Shown: positions 2,603 through 43,632 of the stretch, piece after piece | Layout: every line of letters starts with the position of its first letter | How positions within the stretch are numbered: the first letter of the stretch is position 1 | Source of the DNA: a virus | Reading direction: 5' to 3' (one strand) | Virus record (IMG/VR): IMGVR_UViG_3300021440_000008 | Coordinates: 1-43,632 of that record | Length of the DNA stretch: 43,632 nt | Notes under the pieces: generated by a model | What the model saw: only the letters and a program-made list of their open reading frames with translations | Told to the model about the DNA's origin: nothing | The model's database searches: none | Program-made: the position numbers and the translations under genes

Positions 2603-3163
2603 ATGAAAACAGATAAGCCGAGAGAGTTTTGGATAAGTTCTGATAATGGAGAAGCATGGGACGATAAGCCTAACGATTATGCAATTAAACAATTTGGTCC
2701 TTTTGCTCATGTTATAGAGTGTTTTGCCATCGAACAAAAAGTTGCGGAGATTACCTACGCTAAAAATGCGGAGATTGAGGATTTAAAAGCTGATTTCAAA
2801 AGAGTAGATAATATCAATAGGGAATTAAATAACAAACTCCTCTATCACGATAAAATCGTTGAGCACAATATCGACTTAAACATTAAGATAACTGGATTTG
2901 AAAGTGAAAACGCTACCCTCAAAGCCCAACTCAAAGAGCACGAAGACAAAGGACTTACTATCTATGGACGCAAGATCGAAGTCCTGCGAGGAACTATTGA
3001 CACTTTGGAAGCTGAAAACGCCACTCTGAAAGCTCAGTTGGAGAAGTGTAAGCAGCAGAGAGACAATTTAATAATGGTCCGAAGATACAAGCATAAAGAT
3101 AATGAGTTAATGATCGAGAATTGCAACGCCGAACTCGCCCAACTACAAAAGGACGGAGAATGA
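2603..3163 (+). CDS. Hypothetical coiled-coil protein with N-terminal PREFWI motif
   Basis: A 186-residue protein. The N-terminus has KPREFWISSDNG followed by an acidic, aromatic segment; a PREFWI-type start is something I associate with small phage proteins of unknown function. Residues about 45-180 are a long coiled coil. It contains an internal duplication: ENATLKAQLKEH and, about 40 residues later, ENATLKAQLEKC. The duplication is visible in the DNA as well (near 2910 and 3018). This suggests an elongated oligomeric protein. The stop overlaps the next start. Confidence 0.75.
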   Translation: MKTDKPREFWISSDNGEAWDDKPNDYAIKQFGPFAHVIECFAIEQKVAEITYAKNAEIEDLKADFKRVDNINRELNNKLLYHDKIVEHNIDLNIKITGFESENATLKAQLKEHEDKGLTIYGRKIEVLRGTIDTLEAENATLKAQLEKCKQQRDNLIMVRRYKHKDNELMIENCNAELAQLQKDGE

Positions 3164-3357
3164 AAAGCACACGAAAACCAATAACAGATTGGGAGCTAGG
3201 TAACGATATACTATTTAAAATTTTAGACAATTGCGGAGAACTAATTAAAGAATGTGAGCTAAAGAAAAGGCAAGACTTAGTTGATTATTTTCAAAGTATT
3301 TATGACAAAACCATTCCGATTTATCGGGAACTATCGGGAAATGAGGCATTAAAATGA
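3160..3357 (+). CDS. Hypothetical small protein
   Basis: Not recognised. It is 65 residues from the ATG at 3160, which overlaps the upstream TGA (ATGA) and is preceded by GGACGGAG. A longer frame from 3121 exists, but it would overlap the upstream gene by over 40 bases and has no better ribosome site. The product is helical and charged (ELIKECELKKRQDLVDYF), with no membrane segment. The stop overlaps the next ATG. Confidence 0.7.
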   Translation: MKSTRKPITDWELGNDILFKILDNCGELIKECELKKRQDLVDYFQSIYDKTIPIYRELSGNEALK

Positions 3358-16951: not shown

Positions 16952-18646
16952 ATGCAGCAATCAAAGCGTGAAAAAATAGATTTGCAAGTTGCACAAATGG
17001 AGACTGAGAGATCTAGCTTCATATCTCATTGGAGAGATGTTGCTAAATTCACATCACCTAGAACTGAAAGAATAGACTCATTTGATGTAAATCAGGGTGA
17101 AAAAAGAAATCAAAACATCATTGATGGTTCTGCTGTATTGGCGCTTAGAACTCTTGGTGCTGGCATGATGAGCGGCATTACAAGTCCAGCAAGACCTTGG
17201 TTTCGATTAACTACTCCTGATCCAATGCTATCAGAAATTGAATCAGTTAAGTATTGGTTAGACGATACAGCGAACAGAATGAGATCTGTATATTTAAGAT
17301 CTAATCTGTATAAGGTTTTACCTATTACATATAAAGGGATTGGCAGTTATGCAACTAATGCGTTCTTGGTTGAAGAGGACGAAAGAGAAGTTGTTAGGTT
17401 TGTTCCATTTCTTATTGGCAGTTATTCTATTGCCCAGAATGAGAAAATGGTTGTTGATGTATGGCATCGAAAATTCAGAATGACAGCTAGACAGATCGTT
17501 CAGAAGTTTGGAATGGTTGCAGATAGTCCTAAGTCAATCAATTGGGACAATATCTCAGTTGAGGTTAAGCAAGCATGGGATAACAACAACAAAGAGACAT
17601 GGTTTGATATTGGTCACATTATCCAACCTAATGAGGATTATATTGTTGGCAATCCTCTTGCTAAGTATAAGAAATATTCATCTACATATTACGAGTATGG
17701 TTCACAAGGCTCGACAGGTAGAGATAAGTTCTTATTAGAAGATGGATATGACTACTTCCCGGTATTAGTTCCAAGATGGGAAGTTAACGGAGAGGATAGT
17801 TGGGGCACTAACTGCCCAGCTATGGAAGCGTTAGGAGATAACCAGCAGCTTCAAACTGGCGAGAAGAGATCTCTACAGGCTATTGAGAAGATGATTAACC
17901 CACCAATGATAGCACCTACATCTATGCAGAATAAGCGTATTAGCGCGATTGCAGGAGATATTACATACTCTGATATCAGAGAAGGGCAGTCAGGGATTAG
18001 ATCTATATATGATATCAAGTTTGACATAAATCAACTTGAACAAAAACAACAACAAGTTAGACAGCGTATCTCTAGGTACTTCTTTGAAGACTTGTTCTTG
18101 ATGTTATCTAACTCCGATAGAAGAGAGATTACAGCTCGCGAGATCGAAGAGAGACATGAGGAGAAGTTGTTAGCATTGGGACCAGTGCTTGAGCAATTGA
18201 ATCAAGATCTGTTAGATCCATTGGTTCAGATTACATTTGCAATTATGAACAAAAGAAAGATGTTGCCACCAGCTCCACCGGAGTTACAAGGTCAGGACCT
18301 ACAGATCGAGTATGTGTCGGTAATGGCTCAGGCTCAAAAGCTTGTTGGACTTGGAAGCTTAGAGCGATTTGGTACGATTGTGGCCAATGCTGCTCAGGTT
18401 AATCCATCTATAACTGATAAAGTTGATGGAGATCAGTACATTGATGAAGCTGCAAACATATTAAGTATCCCATCAAGGGTTGTTAAGTCTGACGAGGTAG
18501 TTGCTGGGATTAGAGCGCAGAGACAACAACAAGCTCAAGCTCAAGCTCAAGCTGAACAGATGAAGATGAATGCATCAGCAGCTAAGGACTTAGCACAAAC
18601 TACTCCTAATGATGGTAGTATTCTTAAACAGGTATTGGGGCAATAA
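16952..18646 (+). CDS. Portal (head-to-tail connecting) protein
   Basis: A 564-residue portal that forms the dodecameric DNA gateway at one capsid vertex. It has the sequence character of the podovirus head-tail connector family: an N-terminal FxxxWRDVAKFTSPR segment, an LGAGMMSGITSPARPWF block and a Gln-rich helical region QKQQQVRQRISRYFFEDLF near residue 360. The length is close to T7 gp8 (536). The C-terminus contains a QAQAQAQAEQ tract encoded by a short tandem repeat near 18532-18557. The stop overlaps the Bbp19-like gene start. Confidence 0.92.
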   Translation: MQQSKREKIDLQVAQMETERSSFISHWRDVAKFTSPRTERIDSFDVNQGEKRNQNIIDGSAVLALRTLGAGMMSGITSPARPWFRLTTPDPMLSEIESVKYWLDDTANRMRSVYLRSNLYKVLPITYKGIGSYATNAFLVEEDEREVVRFVPFLIGSYSIAQNEKMVVDVWHRKFRMTARQIVQKFGMVADSPKSINWDNISVEVKQAWDNNNKETWFDIGHIIQPNEDYIVGNPLAKYKKYSSTYYEYGSQGSTGRDKFLLEDGYDYFPVLVPRWEVNGEDSWGTNCPAMEALGDNQQLQTGEKRSLQAIEKMINPPMIAPTSMQNKRISAIAGDITYSDIREGQSGIRSIYDIKFDINQLEQKQQQVRQRISRYFFEDLFLMLSNSDRREITAREIEERHEEKLLALGPVLEQLNQDLLDPLVQITFAIMNKRKMLPPAPPELQGQDLQIEYVSVMAQAQKLVGLGSLERFGTIVANAAQVNPSITDKVDGDQYIDEAANILSIPSRVVKSDEVVAGIRAQRQQQAQAQAQAEQMKMNASAAKDLAQTTPNDGSILKQVLGQ

Positions 18647-27365: not shown

Positions 27366-30300
27366 GTGGCTGATTTCTTAGATGAGGTTCTTGATTCGGA
27401 ACTAGATAATCAAGCTGAAAAATTTAATCAATCAATGTTTACAGCAAATCAATCAAATCCAGACCAATATGCTAAGGTCTTGGAGCTTGCTAAAAAACGT
27501 AATCTAAATCCTCAATTCGTAGAGAATAACTATAATGCTTTGGCTCCGTTAAATGAGGACTATTCTGGTTATCACGATTTGCAATCTCGAGCTCCAATAT
27601 CGGCTGAATGGTTATCAAATCCAGAGAACGCTAAAGTTGCTAAAGATGATATTGCTAATCTGGCTGGATTAGAGTCCGTTGTATATGGTTCGACTAGATG
27701 GGGTGATGTATATAATTTGATTGTTGGTGGAACAATTCAAATGGCTGAAAACTTGGCTAAATCACCTGCCTTGATCTTTAATGATTCTGGAATATTTGGT
27801 GATGACTATTATAAACCTAGCGATTATCAGCCAAAATCAAAGCAAGCTTACGAACAATTATATAAAAATCCTGTAACTAATTATTTATCAAAAGCTGCCG
27901 AGCCTTACGATGTTAAAAGAGATCGAACTGATATATGGAAGAACGCCGCAAATGGTAACTTGTGGCCGTTAGCTTATGGATCAATACATACAGCTCCAAA
28001 TTTACTATTGTTATTGGTTCCGGAAATTGGACTACCTGTGCTCGGTATGGGCGCTGCCGCAGAAAAGAACGCGCAGCTATTACAAAAAGGTGTTAAGCCA
28101 GAAACAGCAGCTATGAGTGCTGCTGCAACTGGTGCATTTGAAGTTTTAACAGAACAGTTGGGCGGTATTGCTGAGGGTGGTAAGTCGTTTAAAGCACTTA
28201 TCAAAGAAGGCGTTGCAGAGATGGGTGAGGCTGGTTTTAAAGCCACATTCACCAAAGCCATGAAAAACATTTTAAAAACTGGCAAAGAAGAATTTGGCGA
28301 AGAATATTTAAATGAATGGGCAAGTGGTATTGTCGACTGGGGTTTGGGTGTTAGTGATTTAACTCCAGATCAGTTGTCAATGAACGCTATTGAGTCAGGT
28401 CTAGTTGGATTTGCGTCTGGTGTTGGCTTGTCTGCTGGTGGCCATGCTATTGCTCGTGGTATTGATATAGTTGCACACAATGAAGACCTAAAGAGTCGTA
28501 TGCAAACAGCGTATGGCGCTGATCTGTGGACTAATATAGGTGGTTATTTAGACCAAGGAAAACTAAACAAAAGATCTGCTGATAAGAGTAAAGACTTCCT
28601 TGATAAAACATTAAATGGATCTGGTGCTGAAAACTCTTATATCCCAACATCAGACTTTGATGAGTATTATCAGTCTAAAAAGATAGATCCAGTTGATGCG
28701 GCTAAGTCGTTAGGCATCTCAAGAGAGTATGAGCAGGCTAAAGAAACTGGCACAGATATTAAATTAAACTCTGCAAATCTGATGGTAGAGACTAAGAAAT
28801 CGGGTGACTACGATGCTATTAGAGATATATCGCGTATGTCAGAAGATGGCTTATCTGTTAAAGAGTTGAAAGCTCAGCAAGAGCAGCAAGCCAAAGAACA
28901 AAAAGAACTTAAGAAATTTGTTGATGAGCAGTTAAAACTAAACGAAAAGTCTGGTGATGCAGTTATCGAAGATGTTGTAAAGCAACTAGTTGATACTGGT
29001 ATGCCAAAGCGTCAAGCGAGAGAGCAAGCTATCATATATAGATTCTTCCAAGTTCAAGCCGAGAAAGTTGGAACTACAGCAGAAGAATTATACAAGCGAT
29101 ATGGAATGAAGGTTATTAAACCAAAACCTAATATTGGTGGTATTGTTCAGAATATACCAGAAGATTTAATGGCTCAGCCTGTTTTAACTCGTAATGAGTT
29201 TGGTGAGTATGACTATCGAGACGAAGATTTAAAGACAATGCTTGCTGGCCTTAAGCGAGGCGCTGCTCCTGTTGAGTCATATAATCCTATTACGAAAAAG
29301 AAATATAATACCGGAAGTACGTTCCCATCTTGGTTTAAGAATCAAGGCGAGAAGTCTCAGAAGGTTACAGAAGTATTAACAAAACAAATCAATGGCGAGA
29401 AGTTAACTAAAGTCGAAAAAGAAATACTCGCTAAAATGTATGAGAACTATCAGGATTCGTTGGGGCGTGGGGAGTTGTTTCAGAGTGGAAATAAGCCTGA
29501 AATGTTCTCACAACTAATTAAAACAGTTGAGTCAAAAATACCTAATAACGCGACACCTAGTCAGATACTTGCCACGCTGAAAGATTTAAAGCCAGAAGAA
29601 ATTGAATGGTCCGGTATCAAATCATTCCTTGATAGAAAAGAAAAAGTTAATAAAGCTGAATTGGTTGAATACTTAAAAGCTAATCAGTTGAATGTTCAAG
29701 ATGTTACTCTTGGATCAAAAGGAAAGCCAAAGAAGATAGATAAACAGCAAGCTATTGATTATATAAACGCTGGTTGGAATGTCTTTTATTACTATGAAGA
29801 TGAGGGTGATTTTTCACAAAGAGCTATCACTATTGATGAAATCACAATAGCGCCAGACGATGCTATGTTTGGAGTCGGTGAAACTGAATACATAGATGAT
29901 ACTAAATATAGTAAATATACATTGCCATCAGGAGAGAACTATCGAGAGGTTTTGTTTACGTTGCCTGAGTCTAAGCCGCATAAGCCTAATTACGAAGTTA
30001 AGTACGATAGTAAGTCTGGATATTATCAGGTTAAAAATGGAGATGTTGTTGTTGGTTCGTTTACAAGCTCAACTGCTGCAAATGCGGCTATTGAAGAATA
30101 CGACAATCTATATGAAAAATACGGAACTGTTCGAGGAGATGAAACGGCTAAGCAGTCATATAGATCATCTCACTTCTCTCAACCAAACATTCTTGCCCAC
30201 ACTCGCCTAACCGATAGAACAGATACCGATGGGAAAAAAGTTTTATTTGTTGAGGAGATTCAGTCTGATTGGCATCAGGCTGGTAGGAAGAAAGGGTATA

Positions 30301-33300
30301 AATTAAACCCTAAGCGAGAGGCTGAATTAAAAGCCAAAATCAAAGAAATTGAAGCAATAGGGAAAGAAGCGACGCCAGAGCAAAAAGATGAATGGGTTGC
30401 GGCCATGAATGAGCTGCAACCACAAAAAGCCACGTCTTCAGTTCCAAATGCCCCTTTCAAAAAAACATGGCATGAGTTTGCTTTTAAGAAAATCTTAATG
30501 ATGGCCGTTGATGGTGGTTACGACAAGGTTGCATGGACTACTGGAGAGCAACAGGCTGAGAGATTTGATTTGAGTAAGCAGATCGGAGCCATAGAGGCGA
30601 CTAAAAATAAAGACGCAACTTATGATGTGTCTGCGTTTAAAGATGACGCAGCTCTTGGCCGAAACAGAAATCCTTTAATAGAAAAAAAATCAGTAACAGC
30701 AGAAGAATTATCAGATTTAATCGGAAAAGATTTAGCTGAAAAGATAACTAAAGATGTTGGATATTATGAAACTAAAAAATACTCTGGACTAGATCTCAAA
30801 GTCGGCGGCGAGGGCATGAAAGGATTTTATGATAAAATCCTAGTTGATTATGCGAATAAGGTGGGTAAGAAGTTTGGGGCTAAGGCTAAAGATATTTATC
30901 TACAAAACGACAATCAGCTACTTGCAAACGATAACGCTGCTTCGGCGGCGGCTATTGGAGCAGCCCCGGTTCATGCGCTAGAAGTAACTTCCGATATGGC
31001 AAAGTCTATAGCAGAATCAGGTCTTCCATTATTCCAAAACAACCAAGGCTCATACAACCGACAAACAAGAGTTATCTCTTTGTTTAAGTCTTCCGATAGA
31101 TCGACATTCTTGCATGAATCAGCCCACTTCTTTTTTGATGTGCTAGCTGATTTATCTAAAACTAGCCCAAAAGTTAAAACAGATTTTGATAAGATCTTAT
31201 CTTGGGTTGGTGCTGAAAATGCTGAATCAGTTACAAGAGAGCAGCATGAGAAGTTTTCGCGTGGATTTGAGGCTTATCTGCTAGAGGGTAAAGCTCCAAC
31301 AAGATTATTACAAAAAGCTTTTAATACATTTAAGGTTTGGTTAACTGGTATATATAGAAACTACGCAGGACTTGAGCGACAGGCTGGACAATCTCTTGGT
31401 CTAACCGATGAGATTCGTCAAGTTATGGACAGAATGTTAGCCACAGAAGAAGAAATAAATGCAGCAGAAGAAGTTGCAGCATTTAAGCCTTTAATGCTTG
31501 ATGAGACTAAGGATAAACTTGAAGATGCTAGAATTTCCGCAGAAGCTCGTTTAAATCGAAAGTTGTTAGAATCAGCTGAGCGCAAGAAAAACTCTGATTA
31601 CAAAACCGAAACAGCAAGAGCACAGCTTCAAAAGCTACCGATATACAATGCTATATCAGTATTAAGAACAGGCTCAACAATAGCTGGTCAAGTTGTTGGA
31701 AATGTTAAGATCAATGCTGATACCATCAAAGAAAAATACGGCGAGGATATGCTAAAATCTATGCCGCGCGGAACAGTCGCACCGGCATCGAATGAGTACG
31801 CTTTACCTGTCGATGTAGTGGCCGAGATGATGGGCTACGCTGATGCTGATGTGTTCTTATCAGAGATAACAACTGTTGAGCCATTAGATCAAGCAGCTCG
31901 CAAGCAAGCTAATCAAATTATTAAACGAGAATACCCAGACTTGCTAGAGTCTGCTGAGATCAAGCAAGAAGCTATGTCGGCATTACATAACGAGAAACGT
32001 GGAACATTACTTAAATATGAATATGAGCACTTGTTTAACAAAGCTCGCGGAGAGTTCAATACTCTTGCTCGTCGAATGATATCTCGTATGCCTATTGAGA
32101 TGGTTGTTAAAGAGCAGGCCGCTAGATACGTTGATAAGCTTAAAGCGTCTGAGCTTAAGCCTTATCTGTACTTAAGAGCTGAGAGACAACACTCAAGAGA
32201 TGCCGCAAGGTTATTTACTGCCGGTGATTTCAAGGGTGCTTTAGAGTCAAAGCGTAAGGAATATTTAAACTTTGAAATATACCGAGAAGTGACTAAAGCA
32301 AAAGAGAATGTTGATAAATTCTCTAAATGGTCTAAGCGCGTATTTGAAAAGAAAGAAGATCTTGCAAAGAAGCGCGATATAGATTTAGTCAATGCCGCAA
32401 GACTTGTATTAAGTAAGTATGGCATTGGCCCACAAATAGCCGAGCAAATCGAATTAGATCTGAACAATTTAAAAGAATACAACGAATCATCTTATAACAA
32501 TATATCTTCAATGATTGCAGATGTTTTAACAAGAGCTACTCCAAATGTTGATGATACGATGTACGACAATTTCAAATCAATGGCTGATACTGTTAAAATT
32601 CTTTGGGATATGTCTAAGGATAATAAAACAGCAGAGCTTGATGGTAAGCGTGAACTTGTTGAAGATATTGTAAAACAAATATCTGATGTGGTTATAACTT
32701 TAACAACTGATAAGAAATCAAAGAAACAGTACGATGAGGCATCTAGTAAATTTGATGAATTTAAAACTGATGCTTTAGATTACTTTGCATCTCGAACAAG
32801 AATAAATCAATGGGCCAACACTATGGACCTTGGTGTTCGCGGAGTGTTTAGAAAACTATTTGTTGAGAAAACAGAAGACGCGAGTGCCAAGTTTAGACTT
32901 GAGCATAGAGATGTTGTTGCTAAGCTTGAGGCTATATTTAAGAAATATGAGGATATATTCACACTTGATAAAATAGTATTCTCAGGAATTGCAAACGTTG
33001 ATACCAATCAAGAGTTTAGATTCCAAGATAAGACAGAACTTCTTATGATGCTTTTAAACATTGGTAACGAAAGCAATAAGTTCAAGCTTCTTGCTGGTTA
33101 CAAATGGGGTGGCTTAAATGAACAAGGTGTTTTAGATGATGCCAAGTTTGATGAGGCCGTTGAGGGGCTTATTAGCAAAGGCATTTTAACTGTTAAAGAC
33201 TTTCAATTCTTAACTGATATCTGGGCGCTCAATGAATCACTCAAGCCAGCAGCTCAGAAAGCCCATAAATATACTCAAGGTTTTTACTTTGATGAGATTA

Positions 33301-34823
33301 CTGCAAAGCCATTTACTAACTCATTAGGTACATGGGCCGGTGGTTATGTTCCTGCTAGGTATGACAAGGGTAAGAATGTTGATGCCAAGGCTAGAGAGGA
33401 ACGTAGACAGATTGAGGAGTCAGATATTACTCGTCAATTCCCGATGCCTAACAAGGGATTCTCAAAGAAGCGCGTTAGCAACTATGCAGCTCCGTTAGAT
33501 CTCGATATTACCAATCTGCAATCTCATTTAGTCGATGTGCTTAAATTCTCTAATTTTGAGCCTGCCGTTGCGGATATTCGCAAGGTTGTGCTTAATAAGA
33601 AATTCAGCGCGATTATGAACGATTTTAACAGTGGGCTTATTAGTCGTGTTATTATTCCAAATCTTCAAACTATATCGACACAGAGAACGACTAAGTATGA
33701 TAACCATACTTTTAAAATGCTTAATAGTTTTGCTTCGTATTTAAGAGGTACGTCTAGCATGATGGTTATGGCTAACAACGTGACTAACTTCTTTCAAGAT
33801 CATTTCTCGGCTATGGCTGCATTAACTAAAGTAAAGTCAAAACATTTAGGGTCTGCACTTGTAAGTTATCTTACAGACCATAATAAATCTATTGATCTGA
33901 TAAGATCTGAGCCGTTCATGGCTTCTATCAATGACGATAATACTAGAGACCTGATTCATTCAATCAATCAAATAGCAGGAGATTCGAACTACTTTAAAGA
34001 CTTTAGACACTTTACGCAGAAGCAAGGTGCGTTCTTGCAAGAGTTCTCATCTGCATATATCAAGAACATAGTGTGGCTTGGGTCTTATAATCAAAGCATA
34101 TCAAGTGGTATGGACGATGCCAGCGCAAGGCGCGAGGCCAATCTAACAGTTAAGATAACCCAGCATACTCAGTTGCCAGAAGTGGTTTCAAGCTCCGAAA
34201 CTGGTACGCCTCTTTATATGTTAATGAATCAGTTTGCTGGATTCTTTAATAACATTTATAACCTAAACGAGTCTGAATATACTATCGCTTATCGCAAGAT
34301 GGGCCTTAAAAAAGCCTTACCTAGAATGATGTATGTGTATGGTATGAGCGTAATGGCTGTTGCTATATCTGGACAACTAATAGCCAACCTTATGCGTGGA
34401 GATGGTTTTGACGATGATGGAGATGGGGACACAGATATCAATGATATATTGTCGTTGTTCTTCACATCTCAGTTTAAGTTCTTAACTGCATCATTCCCTA
34501 TTGTTGGTCCAACTGTTAATACAATAGCAAACAGATATAACCATAAGTTCTATGATGATAAGTTGCAGGTAATGCCATCAATGGCGGTTCTTGAAAGTGC
34601 TGCTGGTGCTGCTTATTCTTTAACTCCTTTTATTGATAGAGAATTTAAGAAAAAAGACATCAAAGACGTACTAAATCTATTGGGTCTTATGACTGGTTTA
34701 CCAACTACAATGTTGTCAAAACCAGCAGGGTATTTGTTTGATGTTAACTCTGGCAAAGCTAATCCATCTGGTCCTATTGATTTCACTAGAGGGTTGCTTT
34801 CTGGGCAGTCTGGTACAAAATAA
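27366..34823 (+). CDS. Giant internal virion / polyvalent ejection protein (T7 gp16-like position)
   Basis: A 2485-residue protein starting at GTG with GGGAGA upstream, about twice the length of T7 gp16 (1318). Visible regions: an N-terminal helical part with a Gly/Ala hydrophobic stretch near residues 215-265; polyvalent-protein blocks EEIQSDWHQ (963-971) and GEGMKGFYDK (from about 1148), typical of large polyvalent protein-associated domains; a zincin-like HESAH motif (His1250-Glu1251-His1254); a coiled-coil centre; GYVPARYDKGKN near 1993; and a hydrophobic helix near 2321-2343 followed by an acidic DDDGDGDTDIND loop. It probably enters the host with the DNA and may carry cargo enzymes. No lytic transglycosylase motif was recognised. 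Confidence 0.85.
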   Translation: MADFLDEVLDSELDNQAEKFNQSMFTANQSNPDQYAKVLELAKKRNLNPQFVENNYNALAPLNEDYSGYHDLQSRAPISAEWLSNPENAKVAKDDIANLAGLESVVYGSTRWGDVYNLIVGGTIQMAENLAKSPALIFNDSGIFGDDYYKPSDYQPKSKQAYEQLYKNPVTNYLSKAAEPYDVKRDRTDIWKNAANGNLWPLAYGSIHTAPNLLLLLVPEIGLPVLGMGAAAEKNAQLLQKGVKPETAAMSAAATGAFEVLTEQLGGIAEGGKSFKALIKEGVAEMGEAGFKATFTKAMKNILKTGKEEFGEEYLNEWASGIVDWGLGVSDLTPDQLSMNAIESGLVGFASGVGLSAGGHAIARGIDIVAHNEDLKSRMQTAYGADLWTNIGGYLDQGKLNKRSADKSKDFLDKTLNGSGAENSYIPTSDFDEYYQSKKIDPVDAAKSLGISREYEQAKETGTDIKLNSANLMVETKKSGDYDAIRDISRMSEDGLSVKELKAQQEQQAKEQKELKKFVDEQLKLNEKSGDAVIEDVVKQLVDTGMPKRQAREQAIIYRFFQVQAEKVGTTAEELYKRYGMKVIKPKPNIGGIVQNIPEDLMAQPVLTRNEFGEYDYRDEDLKTMLAGLKRGAAPVESYNPITKKKYNTGSTFPSWFKNQGEKSQKVTEVLTKQINGEKLTKVEKEILAKMYENYQDSLGRGELFQSGNKPEMFSQLIKTVESKIPNNATPSQILATLKDLKPEEIEWSGIKSFLDRKEKVNKAELVEYLKANQLNVQDVTLGSKGKPKKIDKQQAIDYINAGWNVFYYYEDEGDFSQRAITIDEITIAPDDAMFGVGETEYIDDTKYSKYTLPSGENYREVLFTLPESKPHKPNYEVKYDSKSGYYQVKNGDVVVGSFTSSTAANAAIEEYDNLYEKYGTVRGDETAKQSYRSSHFSQPNILAHTRLTDRTDTDGKKVLFVEEIQSDWHQAGRKKGYKLNPKREAELKAKIKEIEAIGKEATPEQKDEWVAAMNELQPQKATSSVPNAPFKKTWHEFAFKKILMMAVDGGYDKVAWTTGEQQAERFDLSKQIGAIEATKNKDATYDVSAFKDDAALGRNRNPLIEKKSVTAEELSDLIGKDLAEKITKDVGYYETKKYSGLDLKVGGEGMKGFYDKILVDYANKVGKKFGAKAKDIYLQNDNQLLANDNAASAAAIGAAPVHALEVTSDMAKSIAESGLPLFQNNQGSYNRQTRVISLFKSSDRSTFLHESAHFFFDVLADLSKTSPKVKTDFDKILSWVGAENAESVTREQHEKFSRGFEAYLLEGKAPTRLLQKAFNTFKVWLTGIYRNYAGLERQAGQSLGLTDEIRQVMDRMLATEEEINAAEEVAAFKPLMLDETKDKLEDARISAEARLNRKLLESAERKKNSDYKTETARAQLQKLPIYNAISVLRTGSTIAGQVVGNVKINADTIKEKYGEDMLKSMPRGTVAPASNEYALPVDVVAEMMGYADADVFLSEITTVEPLDQAARKQANQIIKREYPDLLESAEIKQEAMSALHNEKRGTLLKYEYEHLFNKARGEFNTLARRMISRMPIEMVVKEQAARYVDKLKASELKPYLYLRAERQHSRDAARLFTAGDFKGALESKRKEYLNFEIYREVTKAKENVDKFSKWSKRVFEKKEDLAKKRDIDLVNAARLVLSKYGIGPQIAEQIELDLNNLKEYNESSYNNISSMIADVLTRATPNVDDTMYDNFKSMADTVKILWDMSKDNKTAELDGKRELVEDIVKQISDVVITLTTDKKSKKQYDEASSKFDEFKTDALDYFASRTRINQWANTMDLGVRGVFRKLFVEKTEDASAKFRLEHRDVVAKLEAIFKKYEDIFTLDKIVFSGIANVDTNQEFRFQDKTELLMMLLNIGNESNKFKLLAGYKWGGLNEQGVLDDAKFDEAVEGLISKGILTVKDFQFLTDIWALNESLKPAAQKAHKYTQGFYFDEITAKPFTNSLGTWAGGYVPARYDKGKNVDAKAREERRQIEESDITRQFPMPNKGFSKKRVSNYAAPLDLDITNLQSHLVDVLKFSNFEPAVADIRKVVLNKKFSAIMNDFNSGLISRVIIPNLQTISTQRTTKYDNHTFKMLNSFASYLRGTSSMMVMANNVTNFFQDHFSAMAALTKVKSKHLGSALVSYLTDHNKSIDLIRSEPFMASINDDNTRDLIHSINQIAGDSNYFKDFRHFTQKQGAFLQEFSSAYIKNIVWLGSYNQSISSGMDDASARREANLTVKITQHTQLPEVVSSSETGTPLYMLMNQFAGFFNNIYNLNESEYTIAYRKMGLKKALPRMMYVYGMSVMAVAISGQLIANLMRGDGFDDDGDGDTDINDILSLFFTSQFKFLTASFPIVGPTVNTIANRYNHKFYDDKLQVMPSMAVLESAAGAAYSLTPFIDREFKKKDIKDVLNLLGLMTGLPTTMLSKPAGYLFDVNSGKANPSGPIDFTRGLLSGQSGTK

Positions 34824-38369: not shown

Positions 38370-39458
38370 ATGGTTGATGTTTACCTTTATCAAGGTGAAT
38401 CAAACCCTAATGATATAAAGCTTCGTGACCCAACCACTATTGCTAGTGGCGGATCTGTAACTGGTACAGTTGCGGTAACTCTTGGCGCTGCAACATCATC
38501 TGCATCTGGTATAGAAACTATATCAGGAACGTCTAACCAGACTCTTTCAAATACTACATCAAGCGTAACTGCTTTAGAAATATTCACGGGCTCAGTATCT
38601 GTATCTCTTGTATCGGCTACATCTACGGCTTCGGCTTTAGAGACTTTCGCTGGCACTGTATCTGTGACACTAGGATCTGCTACATCTACGGCATCAGGGC
38701 TTGAGACGATAATAGGTACATCGAGTCAGTCTTTGTCTAATGCAACATCTAGTGTTGTTGCTGTTGAGACAATTACCGGAACTGTAGCATCTACGCTAAG
38801 TCCTGCAACTTCGAGCGTAGTCGCTGTTGAGACAATATCTGGTACTGCTTCAGTAACACTCGCTGCTGCTACGTCAGCGGCGTCTGGTATCGAGACCATA
38901 ACTGGTACATCATCACAAACTTTGTCTAATGCGACTAGTTCAGTGGTGGCCATTGAAACGATATCGGGGTCTGTTTCTTCTTTATTATCGAATGCGACAT
39001 CATCTGTAGTCGCATTAGAGACTATTACAGGTACACTATCTAAAACTCTTTCAAATGCAACTAGCTCATCGACTGGCATTGAAACAATAACTGGCACTGT
39101 AAACTTAACTTTACAGTCTGCAACTAGCTCCGTATCTGGATTAGAGACAATAACAGGAACAGTTAGTAAGTCATTACAGGACGCTACATCGTCAGCTAGT
39201 GGAACAGTAACATCATCTGCTGTTAGTGGGACTGTCGCAGTTACTTTGCAGAATGCTACATCATCAGCAAGCGGATTAGTTTCAATTAATGTTTCTGGTA
39301 CTTCTGCCGTAGTTCTAGTTAATGCAATAAGCTCTGGTGCTGGATCAGTTACATCGGTAGGATCTGGCGCAATATCTTTTAGACGAAGATCTTCTCAACC
39401 AAGTTCAGACATTCAATACAGATGGATAAAACGGCGCAGACAGAGAAGATTCTACTAG
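38370..39458 (+). CDS. Repeat-rich surface protein with 21-residue repeats and Arg-rich C-terminus
   Basis: A 362-residue protein. After a 31-residue head (VDVYLYQGESNPNDIKLRDP) it has eleven exact-length 21-residue repeats from residue 32, then three to four drifting ones. The repeat reads roughly G-T-[VS]-x-x-[TS]-L-x-x-A-T-S-S-x-x-x-x-E-T-I-[TS], mostly Ser/Thr/Ala, suggesting stacked beta strands in a fibre or stalk. The end switches abruptly to a basic tail, RRRSSQPSSDIQYRW and KRRRQRRFY. Long antisense frames here are an effect of the repeat. It is the last late gene before the convergent terminator. Confidence 0.75.
   Translation: MVDVYLYQGESNPNDIKLRDPTTIASGGSVTGTVAVTLGAATSSASGIETISGTSNQTLSNTTSSVTALEIFTGSVSVSLVSATSTASALETFAGTVSVTLGSATSTASGLETIIGTSSQSLSNATSSVVAVETITGTVASTLSPATSSVVAVETISGTASVTLAAATSAASGIETITGTSSQTLSNATSSVVAIETISGSVSSLLSNATSSVVALETITGTLSKTLSNATSSSTGIETITGTVNLTLQSATSSVSGLETITGTVSKSLQDATSSASGTVTSSAVSGTVAVTLQNATSSASGLVSINVSGTSAVVLVNAISSGAGSVTSVGSGAISFRRRSSQPSSDIQYRWIKRRRQRRFY
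38463..39155 (+). repeat. 63-bp tandem repeats (11 units)
   Basis: Eleven consecutive 63-base units in frame encode the 21-residue repeats; the spacing is exact between 38463 and 39155. Units after 39156 vary in length. Unlike the 12-bp tract at the window ends, these units differ at many synonymous positions, so they are older or more diverged. Confidence 0.85.
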
Positions 39459-43197: not shown

Positions 43198-43632
43198 ATG
43201 AAAAAATATGAATTAACAGAAGAACATCGAGCACAACTTAAACCTTGGGCTGATAAATGGATAGAAAATGGTCTACGAACTAGGTCTATGGACGATATAG
43301 ATAAAAGTGAAATGGTAAAGGCTATAAATGGAATGTATGAGGCTGCTGGTAAAAAAGCACCGAGAGTAGTTTTTACACCAAGTCCTTTCGTTGCAAGATT
43401 CGCTACCGGATTTGCTGCCGCTATATGGTGGAAAAGAAAAAATCCAAAAAGCACTTTATCAACGGACGACGCAACGTACGCCGCAACGAGAGCCGCAACG
43501 ATAGCCGCAACGGACGCCGCAACGAGAGCCGCAACGTACGACGCAACGAGAGCCGCAACGTACGACGCAACGAGAGCCGCAACGTACGCCGCAACGAGAG
43601 ACGCAACGAACGCCGCAACGTACGACGCAACG
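43198..43632 (+). CDS. DUF6745-like repeat protein, 5' part (continues at base 1)
   Basis: The true start of the junction-spanning gene: ATG 43198 with GGGAGAAG upstream. The first about 80 residues (ELTEEHRAQLKPWADKWIENGL, then a short acidic helix, NGMYEAAGKKAPRVVFTPSP) match the N-terminus I recall for DUF6745 proteins, where an LTxEQ...KW...GL...T start precedes a 'YxxxGxxxP...SP' block. After NPKSTLST the Z-X-Ala-Thr repeats begin at residue 90. No stop occurs before the window end; the last codon is ACG. With the part at 1-952 the protein is about 454 residues, with repeats at about 90-205. Family members I recall also carry long, hypervariable four-residue repeats at this position. Confidence 0.85.
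   Translation, partial: MKKYELTEEHRAQLKPWADKWIENGLRTRSMDDIDKSEMVKAINGMYEAAGKKAPRVVFTPSPFVARFATGFAAAIWWKRKNPKSTLSTDDATYAATRAATIAATDAATRAATYDATRAATYDATRAATYAATRDATNAATYDAT
43465..43632 (+). repeat. 12-bp coding tandem repeat, right half
   Basis: Fourteen in-frame 12-bp units (Z-X-Ala-Thr) before the window end. The Z codon is TAC, AGA, ATA, GAC or AAC; the X codon is GCC or GAC; GCA and ACG never vary. The last two units overlap the first two at the left end (22 identical bases). Confidence 0.95.
43611..43632. repeat. Terminal overlap, right copy (identical to 1-22)
   Basis: Identical to the first 22 bases. See the left copy: collapsing both yields a circle of about 43,610 bp and one uninterrupted DUF6745-like gene. 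Confidence 0.85.

Follow-up and report, generated by a model that had tools for sequence, protein, structure and literature searches.

How does a short coding repeat come to vary in two of its residues while its silent bases remain uniform? This question is raised by the window analysed here, a 43,632-nucleotide stretch of viral DNA (IMG/VR record IMGVR_UViG_3300021440_000008, positions 1 to 43,632), in which one gene on the plus strand runs off the end of the contig and is taken up again at its start. An N-terminal domain of 89 amino acids, opening with the ATG at 43198 (43198-43464, 27-63% identity to the N-terminal domain of relatives), is followed by 14 in-register 12-bp units encoding Z-X-Ala-Thr (43465-43632), and at the opposite contig end by 15 such units (11-190), a terminal IDAK (191-202) and a C-terminal DUF6745 domain (209-952), all on the plus strand. 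The overlap common to both contig ends comprises exactly 22 bases, CGCCGCAACGTACGACGCAACG, which open the contig (positions 1-22, plus strand), recur at its very end and are situated inside the array. The reading frame across the junction is lost by plain concatenation and restored when the overlap is merged, and joining the contig ends within the array is plausible. The merged array consists of 28 ZXAT units plus IDAK, or 29 in all, a number made uncertain by the position of the overlap within the repeat, by a 48-base match between the two halves and by the linear class given to the record in IMG/VR.

Once the overlap was merged, the composition given in an earlier note on this DNA, which had listed about 29 units, was recovered exactly (Z: Tyr 10, Arg 9, Ile 6, Asp 3 and Asn 1; X: Ala 17 and Asp 12). 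Each half of the array contains eight unit types and is readily scored by Tandem Repeats Finder (up to 263 and 224 for the two halves). A single codon serves each residue at Z (Tyr TAC, Arg AGA, Ile ATA, Asp GAC and Asn AAC), X is GCC or GAC, the third codon is GCA throughout and the fourth is ACG throughout until IDAK. Consistent with the earlier claim that the units lack synonymous variation, no silent differences were found among them when all codons were compared. Taken alone, this absence is weak evidence, since few independent mutations suffice for the unit types of the window array. Codon bias was rejected as the cause of the silent uniformity in the window, as the array uses codons that are rare in the phage (ACG accounts for 9.6% of Thr codons and GCC for 12.8% of Ala codons) and has a GC content of 62% (43465-43632 and 1-200) against 39% for the phage genome. 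Silent sites of the arrays were GC-rich even in AT-rich phages (mean 0.78), and such a GC-rich, rare-codon array could reflect a donor origin or GC-biased conversion.

The array is placed between two conserved domains, of which the C-terminal one belongs to DUF6745 (PF20530, E = 1.7e-13, match at about 413-751; PHROG 31813, E = 1.6e-15), with the window scoring 50.8 bits against a gathering cut-off of 27 and relatives reaching 115.8 bits. We found no mention of DUF6745 in the literature searched. Directly downstream on the plus strand (952-1317) lies a small gene encoding a divergent member of a family marked by the motifs QGDV, GHxH, HxEH and QREY, whose conserved histidines could bind a metal. 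A QGDV-type small gene adjoins the DUF6745 gene in many relatives, including Microcystis phage LMM01 (gp175, 1545-1916 of contig L009), a Mycobacterium abscessus prophage and contig L034 (about 3016-3324). By a strict motif rule, adjacency was recorded at 51 of 126 loci, a figure in which some contigs are counted twice and divergent copies are missed. The window copy had no match in Pfam or PHROG, and two members of the partner family had none in Pfam. As judged by gene order, the structural-gene block of the window spans about 14.6 to 39.5 kb, and because the repeat gene lies outside this block a receptor-binding role for its product is without support. The portal protein (16952-18646) is 43% identical to that of Salmonella phage epsilon15, which places the window phage in that wider group of podoviruses. 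The window also encodes a 2,485-residue ORF (27366-34823) matching PHROG 9880, of unknown function, and an internally repetitive ORF (38370-39458) with repeats of about 20 residues around SATSxxSGLETITGT and a tandem repeat at 38571-38692.

To place the gene among its relatives, we used a repeat pattern scan, which returned 13 viral stretches, mostly the repeat gene itself, and small alignments of the two flanking domains, which returned 70 and 59 viral loci plus five bacterial contigs. Searching viral_contigs with the window C-terminal protein alone gave no matches, nor did a DNA search of phages with the window sequence, and none of our searches found a close relative of the window itself. 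Among 100 related contigs, 58 terminate in the repeat-gene ORF; metagenome assemblies break there, and intact copies are under-reported. By rule, the A-T type of array was absent from 12 of the 100 contigs (window included), and an array is truly absent from contigs L049, L054 and L055 and from gp174 of LMM01. The array of L145 has an A-V backbone, and outside the A-T group the same position holds units of other kinds, namely SSL (L010), QL (L011), QV (L154) and QA-T/V (L161 and L162). The SSL, QL and QV arrays also have a variable first residue and silently invariant third and fourth codons, and the QV and QL arrays match the bacterial relatives with other residues in a four-residue pattern that the earlier note had mentioned. 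In the taxonomic order of the L159 genome, only two of 399 sampled genomes carried the family, one of them being that of L159 itself, a rarity in line with a mobile gene. Individual relatives showed further peculiarities. In L012 (3720-3883) the frame changes within the array, leaving the N-terminal and DUF6745 halves in different frames, for which assembly error, a broken gene and a switch cannot be told apart. In L044 (2627-4639) a higher-order unit, YHETVDAI, is embedded among ZXAT units. The array of L163 (3609-5678, Hansschlegelia) is mostly a strict alternation of DAAT and SAAT with a mixed end, and looks like a fresh 24-bp expansion.

Tandem repeats usually gather silent and non-silent changes alike. 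The variation was quantified across 80 arrays of at least eight units each (2,305 units in total), drawn from widely differing phages and mostly from metagenome assemblies, in which repeats may be collapsed or chimeric. With codon bases numbered after their residue, within-array heterozygosity was 0.62 at Z1, 0.51 at Z2 and 0.40 at X2, against 0.105 at Z3, 0.042 at X3 and 0.033 and 0.032 at the fourfold sites A3 and T3; only units with Ala-Thr at positions 3-4 were counted, which sets variation at A1, A2, T1 and T2 to zero by construction and leaves the silent sites unaffected. Between arrays, the same fourfold sites were highly variable (0.59 at A3 and 0.58 at T3). All 80 arrays varied at Z1 and 73 at X2, compared with 11 and 13 at the two silent sites; both fourfold sites were invariant in 57 of the 80 arrays, whilst none was invariant at both Z1 and Z2. 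Where two units of an array shared a residue at Z or X, they seldom differed in codon (663 of 33,719 pairs). Arrays closed within their contigs display the pattern too, as do those of isolate genomes (L159 and L163) and of finished phage or plasmid sequences (L010, L011 and L154). Alignment of the gene across related phages thus revealed arrays that are neither identical nor equal in silent change, with uniform silent sites and diverse Z and X, and the recent expansion with variation at two residues proposed from the window alone is supported across the 80 arrays. Variation at amino-acid-changing bases within silently uniform arrays is an unusually clean signature of selection on within-protein diversity. 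On a tree of 71 domains, the dominant silent codon type of the arrays underwent 36 changes at a minimum, which suggests to us that whole arrays have repeatedly been founded anew.

Near-identical phages revealed how arrays change over short intervals. Over 8.57 kb, L088 and L089 differ solely by 24 bp of array, the arrays of L057 and L071 differ by 16 substitutions and 24 gap columns with an unchanged flank of about 4.5 kb, and that of L046 is rearranged relative to L047 with about 4.7 kb of flank unchanged. Between L087 and L089 there are four changes inside the array and one in the flank; L081 and L083 differ in unit number or order too, and have a divergent stretch far from the repeat gene. 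In L088/L089, L057/L071, L046/L047 and L081/L083 the array behaves as a minisatellite (VNTR). Across four pairs, the 32 substitutions within arrays fell without exception at Z1, Z2, X1 or X2, and nearly all units of one pair member were types found in the array of its partner. The arrays of near-identical phages thus differ by unit number, by order and by exchange of existing types, as expected of the recombination or slippage that the earlier note had suggested, and this reuse of units suggests that recombination generates the variation. An assembler's choice of path through mixed arrays could mimic such differences, and even then the arrays would usually vary within the population. A further pair, L153 and L154 from Nocardia farcinica, was dropped owing to single-base gaps that appeared to be sequencing error.

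The residues at Z form a restricted alphabet. Arrays with mostly C-ending Z codons favour R (26%), D (23%) and Y (18%) and those with G-ending Z codons favour R (30%), W (24%) and E (20%), so that two codon classes reach the same basic, acidic and aromatic mix, and this suggests that selection acts on the residue; all three residue classes were present in 65 of the 80 arrays. Between neighbouring Z residues (i, i+4), opposite charges were enriched (z = 4.9) and like charges depleted (z = -2.8), and at lag 9, where the same helix face is met again, Z residues showed no correlation (z = -0.4). Structure prediction, proposed in the earlier note as a check, returned a helical array at low to moderate confidence (pLDDT about 41-71 over both models). 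In the AlphaFold model of the C-terminal half of the window protein the array is a single unbroken helix (pLDDT about 55-70), and in that of L034 it is helical between a confidently predicted N-terminal helical domain and a confidently predicted DUF6745 domain. Predictions tend to make a helix of any repetitive, Ala-rich sequence; with that tendency in mind, these models suggest that the array may form a helix. Neither Foldseek (best E = 1.4) nor a PDB profile search (best E = 0.4) gave a convincing match, and the best hit of VIA-align, a type I antifreeze helix (Z = 4.7), was likewise unconvincing and probably mirrors the common Ala-rich helix.

The explanation that we narrowly favour, with real reservations, is that the array is a coding minisatellite within a phage DUF6745 protein, turned over by recombination or slippage and subject to selection for a mixed Z in a helical rod. 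Each 12-bp unit would contribute one Z-X-Ala-Thr step to a long, exposed, length-variable alpha-helical rod joining the N-terminal helical domain to the DUF6745 domain. Recombination or replication slippage would add, delete and rearrange units in frame and exchange them in part, a turnover that would repeatedly purge silent variants, whilst selection at the protein level would keep Ala-Thr fixed and hold X to A/D or another small set. At Z, selection would maintain the mixture of basic, acidic and aromatic residues, as residue usage in the arrays suggests.

A different function for the same variability would be a combinatorial binding surface, in which the Z and X side chains touch a host or competitor molecule that itself changes, shuffling supplies combinations and diversifying selection retains them. 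The confinement of all variation to amino-acid-changing bases at two residues, the different arrays of near-identical phages and the prominence of Y, R, D, W, S, H and N, residues common in interfaces, would all fit. However, distant phages and arrays on the SSL, QL and QV backbones draw on one and the same small alphabet, Z residues lack the lag-9 correlation, the gene sits in a non-structural region and some family members have no array, so that we regard a binding surface as somewhat unlikely. The concentrated variation described in the earlier note has stood; the binding surface that it suggested, like selection for novelty, is conjectural, and a requirement for a mixed charged and aromatic helix would yield the same statistics. 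The bolder proposal of a template-free combinatorial recognition array, built of tetrapeptides with two variable residues, shuffled by recombination and diversified by selection, appears to us rather doubtful. If true, phages and mobile elements would own a modular binding rod that could be re-sorted within few generations.

Two further explanations were weighed. If repeats were collapsed or chimeric, or the array merely young and neutral, missing silent change would reflect recent expansion; the frequent ending of contigs in the repeat ORF, the uncertain unit number of the window and the few independent mutations needed for any one array agree with this. Recent expansion from one unit would nevertheless leave no more variety at Z and X than at the silent sites, whereas Z1 varies in every array, and contig-closed, isolate and finished sequences carry the pattern as well, which makes artefact or youth improbable. 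Targeted mutagenesis, by a diversity-generating retroelement or a mutator rewriting Z and X codons, is suggested by the NNC form of Z and GNC form of X in most arrays, which resemble adenine-directed change of AAC and GAC. Yet the A of the Thr codon shows no comparable change, arrays of the NNG class (TGG, CGG, GAG and GGG) are incompatible with an AAC template, and close pairs differ by recycling existing unit types. In agreement with the earlier note, which had seen no reverse transcriptase, the RVT_1 domain was detected in none of 30 records, namely the window and 29 related records, some possibly fragments, so a diversity-generating retroelement is unlikely and targeted mutagenesis as a whole is, in our judgement, very improbable.

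Among known systems, TAL effector repeats are near-identical DNA units differing at two adjacent residues and shuffled by recombination, each a helix-loop-helix of 33-35 residues. The array resembles them, by analogy, only in its two variable residues and in its shuffling; its units have four residues (12 bp), no relation of sequence or fold was seen and it is not a TAL repeat. Targets of diversity-generating retroelements vary at chosen residues, often through NNC codons, with a reverse transcriptase and a template repeat nearby; the array shares this focused variation but spreads it over tandem units instead of confining it to one variable region, and lacks RVT_1 in the records searched. Pentapeptide-repeat proteins have a five-residue period with fixed and free positions and fold as a beta-helix, and although their repeats are similarly short, the array has a period of four throughout, an Ala-Thr backbone and a predicted helical structure, and lies outside that class. 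Single alpha-helix (ER/K-type) rods are stable isolated helices stabilised by salt bridges between residues i and i+4; for the array, a putative candidate for this class, a helix is predicted at low to moderate confidence and opposite charges at i, i+4 are enriched. Amino-acid tandem repeats of Borgs are reported to consist of perfect units without SNPs and to be commonly disordered (PMC9879509). Like these and like coding minisatellites or VNTRs, the array has in-frame units that differ in number between close relatives and an origin attributable to slippage or recombination; unlike Borg repeats, its units are not perfect copies, as they vary at two set positions and nearly always in bases that change the amino acid. 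Other DUF6745 proteins (LMM01 gp174, M. abscessus prophage GD102-1 gp38 and that of N. farcinica) share the C-terminal and usually the N-terminal domain, and whilst, unlike the window, gp174 and several of the phage proteins are without an array, many carry a four-residue array at the corresponding position, whose first residue varies and whose backbone differs from the A-T found here. Ultimately, such arrays are a trait of the family rather than a peculiarity of the window.
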